Positions 36,545-44,403 of a DNA stretch of 64,000 bases are shown here, in pieces. The DNA comes from Planctomycetota bacterium (GTDB taxonomy: Bacteria > Planctomycetota > Phycisphaerae > Phycisphaerales > SM1A02): NCBI GenBank assembly GCA_017859745.1, contig JAFMML010000009.1:1-64000 (forward strand), in the 5' to 3' direction. How positions within the stretch are numbered: position 1 is the stretch's first letter; every line of letters begins with the position of its first letter. A program made the position numbers and the translations under genes. A model generated the notes under the pieces. The model ran no database searches and had not been told where the DNA came from. It saw nothing but the letters and a program-made list of their open reading frames with translations.

Positions 36545-37954
36545 TCAGACGCCGGTGGGCAGCTCGAAGCCCGGCCGATACGCACGGCTCACGATCGACT
36601 CCGTCGCCTCGACGTTGTTGGTGAAGGAGTTGGTCGCCTTGTCCCAGAGCAGTTCCTGGCCGGGGTAGCGGGCCGCCTTCGAGCACAACAGGCCGGCCTC
36701 GGCCATCGCGGCTCCGGCGGCGAAGGGCGTCTGGACGAACGCGTCCTTGCCCATGCAGCGGTCGACCCAGCAGTGCCAGTGGTTGCGCTCGCTGCGCTCC
36801 TCGAGGCCCGGGAGGGTCTTCCAGTCGAAGTCCTTGCCGCCTCGCCACACCTCGAGCTTCCCGCCCGGCTCGACGTGCAGCACGCCGTCCTCGCAGACCA
36901 CGAGGGTTCCGGTCGCGGAGAAGTTGCCCGGCGGAATGTTCAGCGCCGCCCGCGAGGGATGCTGCCCCTTGTCGCAGTAGTGCAGCGGCAGCACCGCGTT
37001 GGCGAAGCGATCGCCCGGGTCGGGATAGGCCAGCGTCGAGGCGACGTGCTGGGCGTGGTAGAAGCCCGACGGCGTCCGCGTGTGGGAGATGACCGAGGTG
37101 GGGCTCTTCAGGTCGAACGCGTAGACCGGCACGTCGAGCAGGTGGGTGCACCAGTCGCCGAGCTGGCCCGTTCCGTAGTCCCAGCTCGAGCGCCATCGCA
37201 GTCCGACCAGACCGTCGCGGTACGGCGCGTCCTCGGCGCAACCCAGCCACAACGGCCAGTCGATCGACTCCGGCGGCGTCGAGGGATCGGGCTTCGGGCC
37301 GTAGTAGAAGTAGCCGTTGCCCTCGTCCGGCGGACCACCCACCCAGACGTGGCACTCGACGGGCTTGCCGAGCAGGTCCTTCTCGAGGATCTCCACCGCG
37401 TACTGCCGCCCGGTGTTGCCCATGCGCTGGTTGCCGACCTGGGTGACGAGTTCGGGATGCGCCGCGGCACAGGCCTCGATCGCCGCCACCTCGGACAGCT
37501 GCTGGACCAGCGGCTTCTGGCCGTAGCAGTGCTTGCCGTTCTCCAGCGCCAGCATCATCGGCAGGGCGTGGTTGTGGTCGGGGGTGCAGACGATGACCGC
37601 GTCGAACTTGTCGCCGTGCTTGTCGAACGCCTCGCGATGGTCCTTGCAGGTGAACGCCTGCGGGCGATCCTTCGCGGCATTGGCGAGGGCGTTGGCGTCG
37701 ACGTCGCAGAGCCCGGTGAAGACGACGTCGGGATGACTCTCGAGCTGCTGCCGGTCGTAGGGTGCGATGCTGCCGCCGACGCCGATCTGCAGGATCTGGA
37801 GCTTCTCGAGCCTCGAGCGACGCAGCGATCGCGGCAGCGCGGAGACCGCGCCCATCGCCGTCGTGGCCGAGGCGAGAAGCGACGACGCCGCCACGCTTCC
37901 GGCGGCGGCGACGGTGGAACGGAGAATGGTGCGACGATTGATCGGGAGGCTCAT
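36545..37954 (-). CDS. Gfo/Idh/MocA-family oxidoreductase, Tat-exported
   Basis: 469 residues from the ATG at 37954, chosen because GGAG lies about 11 bases upstream and a twin-arginine signal follows (INRRTILRSTVAAAG, then an Ala-rich core). The Rossmann part has QIGVGGSIAPYDRQQL, TGLCDVDANALANAA, AVIVCTPDHNHALPMMLAL and YGQKPLVQQLSE (EKP-type motif with Gln for Glu). The C-terminal part has GLRWRSSWDYGTGQLGDWCTHLLD. Such exported NAD-dependent dehydrogenases act on sugars or inositols and are numerous in planctomycetes; the cofactor is inserted before export. The substrate is unknown. Confidence 0.88.
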   Translation of the reverse strand: MSLPINRRTILRSTVAAAGSVAASSLLASATTAMGAVSALPRSLRRSRLEKLQILQIGVGGSIAPYDRQQLESHPDVVFTGLCDVDANALANAAKDRPQAFTCKDHREAFDKHGDKFDAVIVCTPDHNHALPMMLALENGKHCYGQKPLVQQLSEVAAIEACAAAHPELVTQVGNQRMGNTGRQYAVEILEKDLLGKPVECHVWVGGPPDEGNGYFYYGPKPDPSTPPESIDWPLWLGCAEDAPYRDGLVGLRWRSSWDYGTGQLGDWCTHLLDVPVYAFDLKSPTSVISHTRTPSGFYHAQHVASTLAYPDPGDRFANAVLPLHYCDKGQHPSRAALNIPPGNFSATGTLVVCEDGVLHVEPGGKLEVWRGGKDFDWKTLPGLEERSERNHWHCWVDRCMGKDAFVQTPFAAGAAMAEAGLLCSKAARYPGQELLWDKATNSFTNNVEATESIVSRAYRPGFELPTGV

Positions 37955-38101
37955 GATCGGCTCCGGGAGGTCGAGGTACCGAGGTCTCGGCATCCTACTG
38001 CCCGGTTCCGGAAATCGTTCGCGGCGATCGGCGTCGAAGTCGAACATCCCGACCCCTGCAGAGGCCGACTCGGCACCGCCCGGCCTTCGGACGACCTCCG
38101 T

Positions 38102-39664
38102 TCAGACGCCGAGATCGGCCATCGTCCGCATCGCGGCGTTGTGGCCCGCGGCGCCGATCACGCTGCCTGCCGGATGCGTGCCGGCGGAGCATGAATAGAG
38201 GCCCTCGACGGGCTGGCGATAGGGCACGCGATCGGAGAAGCCGTAGGCGTTGTCGATGTGGTGGATGTGCCCGCCGGTGATGCCGAAGTGGCGCTCGATG
38301 CCGCCCGGATCCAGCGCAAACATGTCGACGACGAGATCCGACGTGCCCGGCGCGAAGCGATCGCAGATCGACAGCAGATGCCGCGCGTAGTCGTCGCGAT
38401 GGTCGTCCCACGATCCCTCGGCCAGCGTGTGCGGCACCCACTGCACGAACAGGGCGCTGTTGTGGCGCCCCTCGGCGTCCCGCATCGACGGGTCGACGGT
38501 GGTGTGGATGTACCACTCGATGGTCGGGAACTCTGGAAGGCGTCCGGCGGCGACCTCCTCGAAGCCCCGTCGCAGCGACGCCATCACCTCGGACTCGTCG
38601 GGCAGCAGGTGGATCGTCGGACCGAAGGCCACACCCTTCCGATCGAGAGCCTCGGGCAGGCAGGTGAACTTCGGCAGTCCCGACAACGCGAGGTTCACCT
38701 TGAAGGTCGAACCGGGGCGACGCATCGAATCGAGTCGTCGGTTGTACGCGTCGGGAAACGCCTCCGCGCCGACGAGTTCGCGCATGCGGAACGGATCGGC
38801 GTTGACCACCACCGCCGCGGCGCGGATCTCCTCGTCGCCGGCGAGCAGCACGCCCGTCGCGGTCCCGCTCTCGACCAGCACCCGCTCGACGGGACACGAA
38901 GTCCGGATCTCGACCCCGAGTTCGCGGGCCCGCTCCGCAAGGAGCCGGGTCACCGTGCCCATGCCCCCCTCGACGATCATCCAGGTGCCGTCGCTGCCGG
39001 GCAGGCGACACATGTTGTGCACCAGGAAGTTCATGCCCGTCCCCGGCGTGTCCCAGGTCCCGTAGAGGCCGCTGAAGCCGTCGGTGACCGCGTACATCGC
39101 CTTCAGGAGGTCGCTCTCGAACCCGAAGCGGTCGAGGTGCTCGCCGACGGAGCCGCGGCACAGCGCGACGAACGCGTCGCGCAGCGCCGGTCGCACGAAG
39201 CGCTCGGCGGTCTCCTCGATGGAGAGCGGCTCCTCGAGCCAGGTGGGGGCGATGTCGTCGCGCATCGCCTCGATCTCGGCCAGCATCGCGTCGTTGGCCC
39301 GCAGGTCCGCCTCGGAGAAGAATCGGCGCAGCTGGGCCCGCGTCGCCTCGCGGTCGGAACCCAGCAGCAGCGATCGTCCGTCGGTGGTGGGCAGGAAGTA
39401 GTGCGGATCGCGGCGCCGCAGCGGGATCTCGACGCCCACGGCCTCCATCAGTTCCGGCGGCATCACGCCGAGCAGATACGCGCCGGTCGAAGTGGCGAGC
39501 CCCGGCGCCTTCGCGAACGGTCGCTCGGTGCGAACGGCGCCGCCCACGACGTCGCACGCCTCCACGACGAGCGTCCGCAGGCCGCGCTGCGCGAACATGA
39601 TCGCCGCGACCAGCCCGTTGTGACCGGCTCCCACCACCAGCACGTCGCAGCGATGTCGCGTCAT
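38102..39664 (-). CDS. FAD-dependent oxidoreductase, phytoene-desaturase/PYROXD2-like
   Basis: 520 residues. FAD-binding start DVLVVGAGHNGLVAAIMFAQ followed by VVEACDVVGGAVRTE; the middle has MYAVTDGFSGLYGTWDTPG and WMIVEGGMGTVTRLLAE, and the C-terminal FAD motif YSCSAGTHPAGSVIGAAGHN. The GAGHNGL start and the C-terminal GTHPGG-like motif mark the PYROXD2-like group rather than carotenoid desaturases. The reaction is not known. Its ATG lies 40 bases after the O-acetylesterase stop on the same strand, so the two are probably one operon. Confidence 0.8.
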   Translation of the reverse strand: MTRHRCDVLVVGAGHNGLVAAIMFAQRGLRTLVVEACDVVGGAVRTERPFAKAPGLATSTGAYLLGVMPPELMEAVGVEIPLRRRDPHYFLPTTDGRSLLLGSDREATRAQLRRFFSEADLRANDAMLAEIEAMRDDIAPTWLEEPLSIEETAERFVRPALRDAFVALCRGSVGEHLDRFGFESDLLKAMYAVTDGFSGLYGTWDTPGTGMNFLVHNMCRLPGSDGTWMIVEGGMGTVTRLLAERARELGVEIRTSCPVERVLVESGTATGVLLAGDEEIRAAAVVVNADPFRMRELVGAEAFPDAYNRRLDSMRRPGSTFKVNLALSGLPKFTCLPEALDRKGVAFGPTIHLLPDESEVMASLRRGFEEVAAGRLPEFPTIEWYIHTTVDPSMRDAEGRHNSALFVQWVPHTLAEGSWDDHRDDYARHLLSICDRFAPGTSDLVVDMFALDPGGIERHFGITGGHIHHIDNAYGFSDRVPYRQPVEGLYSCSAGTHPAGSVIGAAGHNAAMRTMADLGV

Positions 39665-39704
39665 GGTCGCCGTGTCTCCGATGCCCTTCCCGTCGCGGCC
39701 GCGC

Positions 39705-40706
39705 CTACCGCGACGGCGCCGAGGGTTCCGTGGCCCCGGCCGACGACGTCAACGTGCGCATCGCCCGTCCCATCGCGTCGCCGGCCTGCAGATAGCTGCC
39801 CCCGCTGCCGTACCAGTGATGGCCGTGGGTCCGGTTCGGGCACGACTCCGCGGGACGCAGGAACCGTCGCGTCGGCACGAAGACGACCGCCTCGAGGCCC
39901 TCGCAGCCTTCCCGCTGCGCCGATCGGAACTGCTCGCCGTCCCAGTTGCCGGTCTCGCCGACGACCACCGGCAGCGTCGCCGCGTCGAACTCGGTCCTCA
40001 GATCCGCCACGAGATGCTTCAGATTGGCCGCGTAGGTCGCGGTCGCGTCGCGGTCGCAGGCGTCGTTCCAGCCCTGGAACCAGACGACGCCCTCGAGCTT
40101 CGGCGTCCTGCCGGCGAGCGCCGGGAACCGCTCGGCCATGGTGGCGATCGCCTGCCGGTACTCCGCGAGCATGCGTCGGTAGTACGGGCCGACCTCGCCG
40201 CCGGCGCTCGGCGGTCGGAAGTCCTTCGCGAGGCTCTTGCCGCCCCAGCAGGTCTTCACCAGCAGCACCGGCTCGTCGAACGCGTCGCCGAGGATCAGGC
40301 CGATGCCGAGTTCCGGCCCGATGTGGTGGCGACCCGAGTGCACGCCGAATCCGATCGACAACGGTCCGGACTTGAGCTCCCCACGTTCGGTCAGGTAGCT
40401 GACGAAGACGTCGTCCCGTTCCGTCCAGCCGCCCGCGTCGCTCCGAAGGTCTCGCCACGGGGCGCCGTCGTCGCTGGCGAGAAACTCGACGAGGTTGCCG
40501 CGGCCGCCGTTGTAGTCGCGCTCGTGGTCGAGATCGACGACGCCGTGGCCTTCCATGTTCGACTGCCCCGCGAGCAGGAAGACCCTGACCGCCTTCGCCT
40601 CGCCGGTCGAGGGCGGCGGTTCGGCCGCGACGACGGTCGTGGTGGAGGCCGGAAGCGCGAGCGATGCCGTGACCGCCGCCGCGAGGATTCGAGTGTTCGT
40701 TCGCAT
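39705..40706 (-). CDS. Secreted sialate O-acetylesterase-like SGNH hydrolase
   Basis: 333 residues from the ATG at 40706, set by a -10-like TACGCT ending 6 bases upstream. Signal peptide ILAAAVTASLALPASTTTVVAA. The catalytic serine is in VFLLAGQSNMEGHG (Ser49), with TCWGGKSLAKDF and VVWFQGWNDACD as blocks II/III, and the C-terminal HWYGSGGSYLQAGDAMG supplies a histidine candidate. This is the SASA (CE6-like) domain that removes O-acetyl groups from sialic acid or xylan. Direct divergence from a sialidase (77-base gap) makes O-acetylated sialic acid the likelier substrate. Confidence 0.82.
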   Translation of the reverse strand: MRTNTRILAAAVTASLALPASTTTVVAAEPPPSTGEAKAVRVFLLAGQSNMEGHGVVDLDHERDYNGGRGNLVEFLASDDGAPWRDLRSDAGGWTERDDVFVSYLTERGELKSGPLSIGFGVHSGRHHIGPELGIGLILGDAFDEPVLLVKTCWGGKSLAKDFRPPSAGGEVGPYYRRMLAEYRQAIATMAERFPALAGRTPKLEGVVWFQGWNDACDRDATATYAANLKHLVADLRTEFDAATLPVVVGETGNWDGEQFRSAQREGCEGLEAVVFVPTRRFLRPAESCPNRTHGHHWYGSGGSYLQAGDAMGRAMRTLTSSAGATEPSAPSR

Positions 40707-40712
40707 CGCAGA

Positions 40713-40718
40713 AGCGTA
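40713..40718 (-). promoter_or_regulatory. -10-like box (TACGCT), leaderless-type, for the O-acetylesterase
   Basis: On the minus strand TACGCT ends 6 bases before the ATG at 40706. TTCGAA lies 17 bases upstream of it and may be a -35 element. Confidence 0.55.
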
Positions 40719-40783
40719 CCACTGCGATCCGGTGCTTCGAATAGCCTGCACGGTCGTCAGCCACGTCTCCGGAGAGCGTCGCG

Positions 40784-42013
40784 ATGCCCGAACTCGTCAG
40801 AAGCCCGTTTCAAGCCCGATTCCGATCGGCCGTCGCGATGCTCGCGACGGGCCTCGGCGGCGCGGCCGCGATCTCGTCCGTCTCCGCCGCCGAGCCCCCG
40901 CCCGCCGCGACGCCTGCCGATCCGGCGGTGTTCGCCTCGGGCACCGACGGCTATCACACCTTCCGCATCCCCGCCCTGCTCGAAGCCGCCGACGGCACGC
41001 TTCTCGCCTTCGCCGAAGGCCGGGTGAACGGGCGCGGCGACTCCGGCGACATCGACCTGGTCCTGCGGCGCAGCGAGGACGGCGGACGCACCTGGGGCGA
41101 TCTCGAAGTCGTCTGGAGCGACGGCGCGAACACCGCCGGCAACCCCTGCCCGGTGCTCGACCGCCGCACCGGGACGATCCACCTGCTGGCGACCCGGAAC
41201 CTCGGCACGGACCACGAGCCCCGCATCATCGACGGCACCTCGACCGGGACCCGCACGGTCTGGGTGCTGTCCAGCGCCGATCACGGACGGACCTGGACCG
41301 AACCTCGCGAGATCACCGCGACCGCCAAGCGCGACGACTGGACCTGGTACGCGACGGGGCCCGGCAACGGGATCCAGTTGGAGCGCGGTCCGCACGCGGG
41401 CCGTCTGCTCGTGCCGTGCGACCACATCGAACGGGACACGAGGCACTACTACTCCCACGTGATCGCCAGCGACGACGGCGGCGCGACCTGGCGGGTGCTG
41501 GGACGAACCCCCTCGCACCAGGTCAACGAATGCGCCGTCGCCGAACTCGCCGACGGTTCGCTGCTTCTCAACATGCGGAACTACGACCGTTCGAAGCGGG
41601 CCCGGGCGATCTCGCGCTCGACCGACGGCGGATCGTCCTGGTCCGAGGTCGTGCGCGATCCGGCGTTGCCCGAACCGATCTGTCAGGCGGCGATGGTCGC
41701 GATCGACGAGGGTCGCACCCTGATCTTCTCCAATCCGGCAAGCGCCGATCGCCGTGAACGCATGACGGTTCGCACCAGTCGCGACGGCGGAAGGACCTGG
41801 TCCGAAGGTCTGCTGCTGCACCCCGGGGCGTCGGCATACTCGTCGCTGGCGACGCTCGCACCGCGAGCGAGCGCCGCCGACGCCACCCCGATCGTCGCCT
41901 GCCTCTACGAGGCCGGCGCCTCGCATCCCTACGAGTCGATTCGCTTTCGAGCTCTCGATCGTGCGGCGCTGGGCCTTCCCGACGGGAACACTCCGATCGC
42001 AGACGGAGAGTGA
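40784..42013 (+). CDS. Secreted exo-alpha-sialidase (GH33)
   Basis: 409 residues. A signal peptide (FRSAVAMLATGLGGAAAISSVSAA) precedes the six-bladed sialidase fold. The N-terminal YHTFRIPALL (FRIP motif at residues 60-63, first catalytic Arg) and EGRVNGRGDSGDIDLV (catalytic Asp) are followed by five Asp boxes: SEDGGRTW, SADHGRTW, SDDGGATW, STDGGSSW and SRDGGRTW. CLYEAG near the C-terminus fits the Tyr-Glu nucleophile pair. It releases terminal sialic acid from glycans outside the cell. GGAG about 9 bases upstream fixes the start. No sialic acid lyase or transporter is present in this window, so the product may be used via genes elsewhere. Confidence 0.9.
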   Translation: MPELVRSPFQARFRSAVAMLATGLGGAAAISSVSAAEPPPAATPADPAVFASGTDGYHTFRIPALLEAADGTLLAFAEGRVNGRGDSGDIDLVLRRSEDGGRTWGDLEVVWSDGANTAGNPCPVLDRRTGTIHLLATRNLGTDHEPRIIDGTSTGTRTVWVLSSADHGRTWTEPREITATAKRDDWTWYATGPGNGIQLERGPHAGRLLVPCDHIERDTRHYYSHVIASDDGGATWRVLGRTPSHQVNECAVAELADGSLLLNMRNYDRSKRARAISRSTDGGSSWSEVVRDPALPEPICQAAMVAIDEGRTLIFSNPASADRRERMTVRTSRDGGRTWSEGLLLHPGASAYSSLATLAPRASAADATPIVACLYEAGASHPYESIRFRALDRAALGLPDGNTPIADGE

Positions 42014-42046
42014 GCGCGGTCGCACGACCACTCCCACCTCCCCCCG

Positions 42047-43066
42047 TCACCCTCGCCCGCGTTGGACCCATCCTTCGGCAAGCCGCCAGCAGCGATGGAT
42101 CCTTCGATTGCGAAAGTCCTCGGGCACCGAGCGGTTGCTGATCTCCCGGCAGCCGAATCCCGCCGGAACGGCGCCCGGCGCCATCTCGAAGCTTCGGGAG
42201 TTGGTCGAGAAGAGGATCTCGCCGCCGGGGGCGACGAACCGGGCGAGCCACGCGAGCAGTTGCGGGTGGTCCCGGTCGATCGAGAACGACTCCGCCTTCA
42301 TGCGCTTGGAGTTGGAGAACGTCGGCGGATCGCACACCACCAGGTCGTAGCGGTCCGCGGCCGAACCGGGTCCCGCCTCGAGCCACTGCAGGCAGTCGGC
42401 GTGGATCGCGCGGTGATCCTCGTCGAGGGCGAATCCGTTCAAGGCGAGGTTGCGTGCGTACCAGTCGAGGTAGGTCCGCGACATGTCCACGGTCGTCGTG
42501 GACGCGGCGCCGCCGGCCCGGGCGTGGACGCTGAAGGCGCCCGTGTACGCGAAGAGGTTCAGGACCCGTCGCTCCTTCGCACGATCCTGTACCGACTTCC
42601 GCATCGGCCGATGATCGAGGAAGAGGCCCACATCGAGGTAGTCGGAGAGGTTCACCTCGAATCGAAGGCCGTGCTCGGCGACCACCTTGGTCCGGCCCGC
42701 GTCGCCGACCCGCTCGTACTGGTCGCGGCCGCCCTCGTCGGACACCTGCCGACCACGGTGCTTGACGAAGAGTCGATCGCGGGAGATGTCGAGGCCCGCG
42801 AGGATCTCCGCCTCGCTGTCGCGACGGTGTTCTCGCTCCTGATCGGGCGTTTCGTCCTTCCGCCGCCTGAACAACCACGCCACCGCGTCGCCCGCATGCG
42901 CGAGATCGATCGGCGTTCCCGTCGCGGGATCGACGTCCGCATACCAGTCGACGATCGCCGGGTACTCGGGCACGTCGCGCTCGTAGAGACGGAAGCAGGA
43001 GATCCCCTGCCGCCGACCCCACTTCGCGAGATGCCGCATTCGATTCGCCAGTCGCTCGCCGAGCAT
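42047..43066 (-). CDS. Class I SAM-dependent rRNA (cytosine-C5)-methyltransferase-like protein (RlmI/RlmK type)
   Basis: 339 residues. The C-terminal domain has EVNLSDYLDVGLFLDHRPMR, RVLNLFAYTGAFSVHA (SAM-binding motif I), DMSRTYLDWYARNLALNGF, HRAIHADCLQWL and VVCDPPTFSNSKRM (motif IV), in the order found in RlmI and the RlmK half of RlmKL. The N-terminal part has no clear PUA domain. It probably methylates 23S rRNA or another RNA in the cytoplasm; a guanine-N7 rather than cytosine target, as in RlmK, is possible. A -10-like TACGCT ends 8 bases before the ATG. Confidence 0.82.
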   Translation of the reverse strand: MLGERLANRMRHLAKWGRRQGISCFRLYERDVPEYPAIVDWYADVDPATGTPIDLAHAGDAVAWLFRRRKDETPDQEREHRRDSEAEILAGLDISRDRLFVKHRGRQVSDEGGRDQYERVGDAGRTKVVAEHGLRFEVNLSDYLDVGLFLDHRPMRKSVQDRAKERRVLNLFAYTGAFSVHARAGGAASTTTVDMSRTYLDWYARNLALNGFALDEDHRAIHADCLQWLEAGPGSAADRYDLVVCDPPTFSNSKRMKAESFSIDRDHPQLLAWLARFVAPGGEILFSTNSRSFEMAPGAVPAGFGCREISNRSVPEDFRNRRIHRCWRLAEGWVQRGRG

Positions 43067-43074
43067 GGGGCGGA

Positions 43075-43080
43075 AGCGTA
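43075..43080 (-). promoter_or_regulatory. -10-like box (TACGCT), leaderless-type, for the methyltransferase
   Basis: On the minus strand TACGCT ends 8 bases before the ATG at 43066 with no ribosome binding site between. Confidence 0.45.
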
Positions 43081-43227
43081 GCGACCGGATCGCGATCCCA
43101 CTTCCCGGGCACGCCCCCCACCGCGAGGGCATCCGCGCGAGATCGGCGCCGCCGACGCCACCAGCCCGGACGTCGCCGCCGAGGCCGCGTGGCCGCGACC
43201 GCCTCGATCGCAGTCCGGTGCGGTCGC

Positions 43228-44403
43228 TCAGGCCGAGCGCACCCACCGCACCAGATCGGGCACCACCGCATCGAGCCACGCCGCCGCGACCAGTGCGACG
43301 ACCACCGCCACCGCGACGACCGCCAGCACCTCGCCGCCGATCAGCAGACGAATCGTCCAGGGTCCGGCGCCGATCGCCCGCATGGCGAGCAGCTCGCTGC
43401 GGCGGGCCCGGATCGAGAGCAGCAGCGTCATGGACGACAACGCCACCGTCACGACCACAAGCACGACGGTCACCAGATCGAAGATCCTCGCCACTCGAAC
43501 CACGCGGTTGAGCAGATCGCCCACGACGATCGCCGGATCGACCGCCTGCCGCGCCTCCGGTTCGTCCAGCCGCGTGGACACGATGGTCTCGGCCTTGCGG
43601 GTCCGCGGAAACACCAGGATCGCGCTCGTGGGCATCTCGCCGAGTTCGCCATGAAGGTGGAACCCCGCGAGGTTCTCGTCGGTCACCTCGTAGTACTCGC
43701 GAATCCCCTCGTCGAGCACGATCCGCTCGCCGTCGCGGCCAAGCACCACCCGCTCGGGAAGCGATCGGGCCTCGGCGTGCCCGTGCAGCAGGCCCTCCAG
43801 AAGCCACGCGGTCCGCAGATCCACGAAGACCGCCTCGTCGTCGGCGGTGCCGCTGGTCTCCAGGACGCCGCGCACGTGCATGCGAAGCGGCGGCGCCGTC
43901 GCGAGGTCGTAGGCCTCGCGGGGATCGGAGAAGAGACCGTCGCCCGGCGCAATCCCCAGCCTTCGCGCCAACGCGGCGCCGACCACGCAGTCTCCGAGGC
44001 GCTGCAGGAGATTCCCGCGGGCCGGACGCAGATCCCGCTGCTCGAAGTAGTCGTATCGGGTCCCCACGATCGGCGCACCCCGCGTGGTGAATCCCAGCGC
44101 GAGCGGCACCGCCAGCACCTCCGGCTCGGCATCGAGTTCGAGGGTCTCCCGATACCGAAGCGTCCCGATCTCGGCGCGGTCGAAGTAGAGCGAGGCGAGC
44201 ACGAGTTCGATCGGACTTCCCGCGACGCCGACGACCAGCGGCGTCTCCGCGGCGCGGCGTCGAAGTTCGGCGCCGGTGCGTTCGAGCACCATCCGACCGG
44301 CGATGGGAATCAGCAGCGCCCCGGCGAGGCACGCCGTCAGGAGCGCGGTCTGGGCCCAGTCGTGGGCGAGGCGTCGCAGGACCAGCAGCGGAAGCCCCCT
44401 CAC
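43228..44403 (-). CDS. ABC transporter permease, MacB/FtsX-like
   Basis: 391 residues from a GTG at 44403 that overlaps the ATPase stop (GTGA). One helix near the N-terminus (TALLTACLAGALLIPIAG), a long extracytoplasmic domain of about 230 residues, and a C-terminal set of helices (FDLVTVVLVVVTVALSSMTL, then the FtsX-type turn RRSELLAMRAIGAGPWTIRL and GEVLAVVAVAVVVALVAAAW). This is the type VII exporter layout of LolC/E, MacB and FtsX, which work by mechanotransmission rather than transport through the membrane. The substrate is unknown. Works with the ATPase encoded just upstream. Confidence 0.8.
   Translation of the reverse strand: MRGLPLLVLRRLAHDWAQTALLTACLAGALLIPIAGRMVLERTGAELRRRAAETPLVVGVAGSPIELVLASLYFDRAEIGTLRYRETLELDAEPEVLAVPLALGFTTRGAPIVGTRYDYFEQRDLRPARGNLLQRLGDCVVGAALARRLGIAPGDGLFSDPREAYDLATAPPLRMHVRGVLETSGTADDEAVFVDLRTAWLLEGLLHGHAEARSLPERVVLGRDGERIVLDEGIREYYEVTDENLAGFHLHGELGEMPTSAILVFPRTRKAETIVSTRLDEPEARQAVDPAIVVGDLLNRVVRVARIFDLVTVVLVVVTVALSSMTLLLSIRARRSELLAMRAIGAGPWTIRLLIGGEVLAVVAVAVVVALVAAAWLDAVVPDLVRWVRSA

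Follow-up and report, generated by a model that had tools for sequence, protein, structure and literature searches.

A close counterpart of the gene pair analysed here comes from gut Bacteroides, where the 9-O-acetyl sialate esterase EstA and the sialidase NanH are a precedent for joint action of two such enzymes (PMC5512079). As in that system, the locus described below encodes an esterase and a sialidase that would be located outside the cytoplasm, here by prediction, and that could act in sequence. The locus differs from it in that the two genes are divergent and the sialate specificity of the esterase is putative, and scans of the genus gave neither a NanA-like nor a NanM gene. Sialidase genes reportedly exceed the breakdown gene nanE about 21-fold in prevalence in non-human environments (PMC10570557). 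A search of the open-licence literature found no paper on such a sialidase-esterase pair in Phycisphaerales.

The window, i.e. the whole stretch of 64,000 nucleotides that was analysed, is part of contig 121 in a draft genome (G000) with a size of 3.24 Mb, 147 contigs and a completeness of 97%; two further genomes, G001 and G002, belong to the same genus. The layout described in an earlier sequence-only reading is borne out by the coordinates of the open reading frames (Table 1): the gene of the sialidase P0001 stands head-to-head with that of the esterase P0002, and an FAD enzyme gene 40 bases past the esterase stop codon is followed by that of a Tat-type Gfo/Idh protein. Secretion of the sialidase and the esterase was judged by eye from their signal-like N termini. 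With slightly more doubt than trust, we regard the two as a small glycan-trimming pair, in which the sialidase would be joined by an esterase that deacetylates the same or accompanying glycans and in which sialic acid itself is probably not the food.

Table 1. Features of the sialidase-esterase locus (positions in the window)
Feature	Position	Strand	Details
GH33-type exo-sialidase P0001, predicted secreted	40784-42013	+	409 aa; Pfam BNR_2 1.5e-41
SASA-type (PF03629) SGNH carbohydrate esterase P0002, predicted secreted	39705-40706	-	333 aa; Pfam SASA 1.5e-22
Divergent intergenic stretch, possible promoter region	40707-40783	.	77 bases between the two ATG codons
FAD-dependent oxidoreductase (amine oxidase / phytoene-desaturase superfamily)	38102-39664	-	Pfam Amino_oxidase 2e-16
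Tat-type Gfo/Idh/MocA oxidoreductase	36545-38047	-	Pfam GFO_IDH_MocA 4e-11; RR motif NRRTILR by eye

P0001 had been called a GH33 sialidase with five Asp boxes and a FRIP motif, and all of these were found in the translation, the S-x-D-x-G-x-x-W boxes at S97, S164, S229, S279 and S332 and the FRIP motif at R61. A phmmer comparison with the PDB matched the protein to the sialidase of Micromonospora viridifaciens (1e-43). None of the predicted catalytic residues R61, D86, E249, R265, R324 and Y352 varies among the 27 rows of the sialidase alignment A1, which holds 26 of the 29 non-self sialidase loci (L020, a fragment, L029 and L032 were left out). All six expected residues are thus present and invariant, and therefore an objection to the sialidase assignment from a missing active site fails. 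Five of these positions align to the M. viridifaciens enzyme and D86 falls one column off in an ungapped stretch; its register was judged from the NEU2 sequence. The roles, presumably an arginine triad of R61, R265 and R324, an aspartate as acid/base and a Tyr/Glu nucleophile, as well as the reference residue numbers, follow the enzyme literature. The structural model of P0001 (pLDDT 86.8) is of the propeller type, and its top Foldseek matches in the PDB are bacterial sialidases, with TM scores to the target of 0.86-0.89 for the single-domain entries 1eur, 1eus and 4j9t, the last of which is a design on a sialidase scaffold. P0001 shares the propeller-type model, the five Asp boxes, the arginine triad and the Asp, Glu and Tyr residues with the GH33 exo-sialidases of M. 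viridifaciens, with Bacteroidetes NanH and with mammalian NEU1 and NEU2. It differs from them in that it consists of a single catalytic domain, shares about 33% of its matched residues with the nearest solved structure, and has a putative substrate. These residues and the model support the view that P0001 would be a complete-looking, ordinary GH33 sialidase with a signal-like N terminus. Of the 14 named records whose sialidase is most similar, 11 carry the label Phycisphaerales, Phycisphaerae or Phycisphaera and two others go by different planctomycete names, which makes a planctomycete of that group the very probable host.

The partner P0002 had been described as a SASA-type sialate O-acetylesterase, and this is supported for the SGNH carbohydrate esterase and not supported for the sialate specificity. 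The protein reaches 80.8 bits against the SASA profile (cut-off 24.8), and S49 (in GQSNM), N214/D215 (in GWND) and H297 are invariant in the 21 sequences of the esterase alignment A2, which covers 20 of the 29 non-self esterase loci (L070, with an internal stop, and the more distant L081-L088 were left out). At position 294, three residues before H297, where the Asp of a DxxH motif is expected, nearly all 21 rows have a His, and the profile alignments to solved structures stop short of the part with H294 and H297. The catalytic acid, given H294, may come from elsewhere in the protein. The model (pLDDT 87.6) is closest in fold to 2apj (At4g34215; Z 23.8) and 1zmb, a putative acetylxylan esterase (Z 22.4). 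XAC1771, a CE20 enzyme, the deacetylase FI8, SIAE and NanS score at Z of about 19 to 22, and NanS (Z 20.0) and SIAE (Z up to 20.3) lie below both 2apj and 1zmb. Since neither of the nearest solved folds belongs to an established sialate esterase, a sialate specificity of P0002 is putative. In sequence, none of the 50 structures listed is close (identity of at most 20%), and no NCBIfam model matched the esterase at 0.001. P0002 has in common with the SASA/PF03629 esterases (2apj, 1zmb, XAC1771 7kmm, NanS 3pt5 and SIAE 8f9p) the SGNH-type fold, the serine block GQSNM and the conserved His, and differs from them by H294 in place of the expected Asp and by the low identity. The term sialate O-acetylesterase is therefore a family label for P0002, and its activity on sialates is putative.

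The arrangement of the genes was then compared between genomes. In the congener G001, the run of sialidase, esterase, FAD enzyme and Gfo/Idh genes is intact at 78-85% identity, with 78% each for sialidase and esterase. The dN/dS values between G000 and G001 (sialidase 0.23, esterase 0.25, FAD enzyme 0.17 and Gfo/Idh protein 0.14) point to purifying selection on all four. The DNA past the sialidase gene is different in G001, and the methyltransferase gene that flanks the sialidase in the window is about 11 kb away there. The second congener, G002 (100% complete), has the methyltransferase and Gfo/Idh genes in the same order as in the window, and neither the sialidase nor the esterase (at E 1e-20) nor the FAD enzyme (at E 1e-80) was found in it. 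Because G002 keeps the Gfo/Idh locus without the other three, sialidase, esterase and FAD enzyme can be taken as a module at a variable locus, with the Gfo/Idh gene as its background. The variable locus (window 36545-43273, compared with L126 and L133/L039) lies between the gene of a SAM-dependent, RlmI-like methyltransferase and the Gfo/Idh gene; it is occupied by the sialidase module in the window, by this module and some 11 kb more in G001, and by exonuclease and response-regulator genes among others in G002.

At the level of the family, an orthologous sialidase, defined as a match at E <1e-90, is carried by 13 genomes, G000 and G001 included. A SASA gene was sought near the sialidase in the 11 family loci outside the genus and found in none of them (stretches of 3.4 to 19.9 kb, five of them below 8 kb; in one, G039, the sialidase gene is split over two contig ends). 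In a wider set drawn from 84,980 species genomes, a SASA gene stands beside the sialidase in at least two of the best 80 of 343 relatives, namely in L138, which is G001, and in L205 from Verrucomicrobia. The SASA profile used for these 80 was built from A2 and is narrower than PF03629, and many of the loci are short, so that two is a lower bound. In L205 (7954-11125), a two-domain esterase-like protein is encoded directly upstream of a 52% identical sialidase on the same strand; its SASA part is without the GQSNM serine and reads GDENC at the first block. A wide linkage between sialidase and esterase, which we had considered, was thus not seen beyond the genus except in L205. The pair is real but local and, as far as seen, restricted to the genus.

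So narrow a distribution is also what would be expected if the pairing were a coincidence inherited in two congeners, with the sialidase acting alone and the esterase being a general carbohydrate acetylesterase, e.g. for acetylated algal or plant polysaccharides, a reading that we consider possible although on the doubtful side. The nearest esterase folds named above, At4g34215 and the putative acetylxylan esterase, agree with it, and relatives of the esterase stand in mixed contexts without a sialidase match in all 13 fetched loci (5.6-19.9 kb). In the family, 11 genomes have an esterase relative (E <=1e-70) and no orthologous sialidase; six of these contain a more distant GH33-like match and five have none at E 1e-20. 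Against coincidence, the chance that a given gene has a SASA neighbour is about 0.2%, assuming 2,900 genes and counting the three SASA genes of this genome, and the adjacency outlasted a divergence to about 78% identity while the DNA past the sialidase changed. The esterase also co-occurs with the sialidase more often than expected, being present in 9 of the 13 family genomes with an orthologous sialidase versus 11 of 78 without (Fisher 9e-5, with kinship ignored).

The two genes had also been proposed to share a promoter region, and here the proposal lost ground. A sigma-70-like site was sought in the 77-base stretch and none was found, although promoters in this group may depart from such a consensus, and the stretch gave no convincing alignment with the corresponding 101 bases of G001. 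The idea of a conserved shared promoter was set aside on these two results; the genes may be regulated jointly. Genus-restricted adjacency, the esterase folds, the genomes with esterase only and this unconserved intergenic DNA together speak against a joint trimming of glycans by the two enzymes. Two possible origins of the pair were discarded as well. Its composition gives no sign of horizontal acquisition (GC 0.71 for sialidase and esterase versus 0.70 for the window), and a search for a phage origin among 50,697 phage records gave two matches, with identities of 34% and 24%.

Regarding the two oxidoreductases, the FAD enzyme is without a signal-like N terminus, and its gene is possibly co-transcribed with that of the esterase. 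Its distribution is patchy, with relatives in 9 of 151 genomes from four genera (E 1e-80). Eight of these are among the 150 other genomes, and only G001 has a match to P0001; the seven carriers outside the genus showed none at E 1e-20. This suggests that the FAD enzyme has been gained and lost independently of the sialidase. In G040, the reading frames around the FAD relative resemble, by eye, sulfur amino acid genes. For the Gfo/Idh protein, a similarity to the BT_2158 glycoside 3-dehydrogenase family (NF058561) stays well below the cut-off (164 bits against 750). This similarity and the contiguity of all four genes, kept together in G001, would fit a single pathway in which the two oxidoreductases oxidise sugars freed by the sialidase and the esterase, as the sequence-only reading had implied. 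We consider such a pathway highly improbable. G002 keeps the Gfo/Idh gene at this locus, and searches for the other three found none of them there; relatives of the Gfo/Idh protein (E 1e-60) occur in 59 of the 151 genomes, 10 of which are among the 13 with an orthologous sialidase; and the carriers of the FAD enzyme outside the genus gave no P0001 match at E 1e-20. The Gfo/Idh gene is a conserved neighbour of the locus and not part of the pair, and the FAD enzyme shows no sialic link.

The fate of released sialic acid was approached through the Nan genes. The earlier observation that no gene for a lyase or a sialic acid transporter lies in the window fits the genome scans, which for transporters covered SSF: in the own draft, profile scans gave no match to PF00701, NANM, NanE or AGE, and no complete Nan system was found with these profiles, the SSF matches being three rows in two reading frames on other contigs without a NANM part. 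The family looks different. A NanM match is present in 10 of the 13 genomes with an orthologous sialidase versus 20 of the 78 others; six of the ten pass the family cut-off and four do not, and an SSF scan of nine of the ten found such a domain behind NanM, in the same frame, in every case. The sialidase genomes without a NanM match are G000, G001 and G073, the last of which is only 70% complete. NanM was sought in all three genomes of the genus (96-100% complete) and found in none. PF00701, to which G000 has no match, is represented by one gene each in G001 and G002, with a score that resembles those of the family's presumed DapA genes and differs from those of the lyases next to NanM; G009 has a NanM match and no PF00701. 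As a side observation, PF00701 (DHDPS/DapA/NanA) was matched in all 14 control genomes and in both congeners and is missing from 37 of the 151 genomes, G000 included. AGE passes its cut-off in the three g33 genomes, in G110 and in one g38 genome out of two. It was not found in the genus of the window, nor in the g7 and g8 genomes despite their NanM matches, and NanE was found in none of the 15 genomes tested. Because NanM-bearing relatives are also without NanE and AGE, the absence of these two carries little weight; given this spread, it is NanM, and to a lesser degree the lyase, that sets the genus apart.

The sialidase clade itself is tied to sialic acid by relatives in other families of the order. 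In G098, G110 and G103, sialidases of 49-55% identity are encoded near a NanM-SSF fusion, a DHDPS-type lyase and a GntR-type regulator; one member of each role was scanned with Pfam and the others were assigned by blastp similarity or genome scan. The genus of the window differs from these clusters, in which its sialidase clade otherwise lies, in showing neither a NanM nor a NanA-like match. The fusion of a NanM-type kelch epimerase to a sodium:solute symporter, about 880-920 aa long, was seen at L049:12156-14795 (by Pfam scan) and L050:4226-6991 (by 71% similarity and the NANM genome scan), in both cases near sialidase genes of order-level relatives. Among the best 80 of the 343 relatives, single-query tblastn found the NanM-SSF query in five loci and two DHDPS-type queries in nine, some at only 29-31% identity. 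Most of these 80 loci gave no match to either within the fetched DNA, which counts against a tight sialic acid cluster.

It is against this background that a full use of sialic acid as food has to be weighed, with the Nan pathway missing from the draft or running through a route outside the searched families. We judge it unlikely, since all three genus genomes are without a NanM match at their high completeness and each of the two congeners has one PF00701 gene, whose score falls where the presumed DapA genes lie. In its favour, family members with an orthologous sialidase have NanM-SSF fusions, some with an adjacent NanA-like lyase (G067 and G075) or AGE (all three g33 genomes and G088), and several NanM-bearing relatives lack NanE and AGE, so that this absence is compatible with sialic acid use. 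Moreover, the draft consists of 147 contigs at 97% completeness and missing genes may therefore be gaps, and the missing DapA candidate points to such a gap or to a real loss. The sequence-only reading is supported in its sialidase, in the carbohydrate esterase next to it and in an adjacency kept in a congener. A use of sialic acid itself as food is weakened, since the genus gave no match to NanM or to a NanA-like lyase.

A second GH33-like gene of G000, on contig 30 (L056:13142-15304), encodes a protein with a LamG-like domain in which the six catalytic residues are kept, and a PF00756 esterase gene follows it after 4 bases (span L056:11764-15304). By eye, this protein and its PF00756 esterase both end in dockerin-like repeats. 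This second pair is kept in G001 (L218) and was not seen in 14 other fetched loci; in G002, neither sialidase was found at E 1e-20. Both GH33-like genes of G000 with catalytic residues thus adjoin esterases, of two unrelated families, which lends some support, from very few genomes, to paired action. Separately, an 847-aa frame on contig 123 (L058:7710-10253) combines a BNR-repeat part with an alpha-L-fucosidase domain and, below the threshold, an F5/8 type C match, and most of the sialidase catalytic residues are not kept in its aligned columns. That a free-living planctomycete genus has two esterase-flanked sialidases without NanM or NanA-like genes might mean a de-capping of glycans for their inner sugars or an unrecognised sialic acid route, a broader claim that we regard as fairly unlikely.

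Overall, the tentative reading of a sialidase and an esterase trimming glycans together would work as follows. A retaining GH33 exo-sialidase, with its arginine triad, Asp acid/base and Tyr/Glu nucleophile, would remove terminal sialic acids from external sialoglycans, and the divergent esterase would most likely take O-acetyl groups off the same or accompanying glycans and in this way aid the sialidase on acetylated substrates. The sugars beneath may serve as food, or the released product may be left to others. The scans of the genus gave neither a NanM mutarotase/symporter nor a NanA-like lyase, and for this reason sialic acid, once released, is probably not what the organism feeds on. As a gene pair the two are ordinary; the one mild surprise is that NanM and the lyase are missing. 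With an orthologous sialidase and no NanM-type genes, unlike the carriers in neighbouring genera, the genus is a possible genome-level example of sialidase excess, and it offers a testable case of sialidases that would uncover glycans rather than feed on sialic acid.
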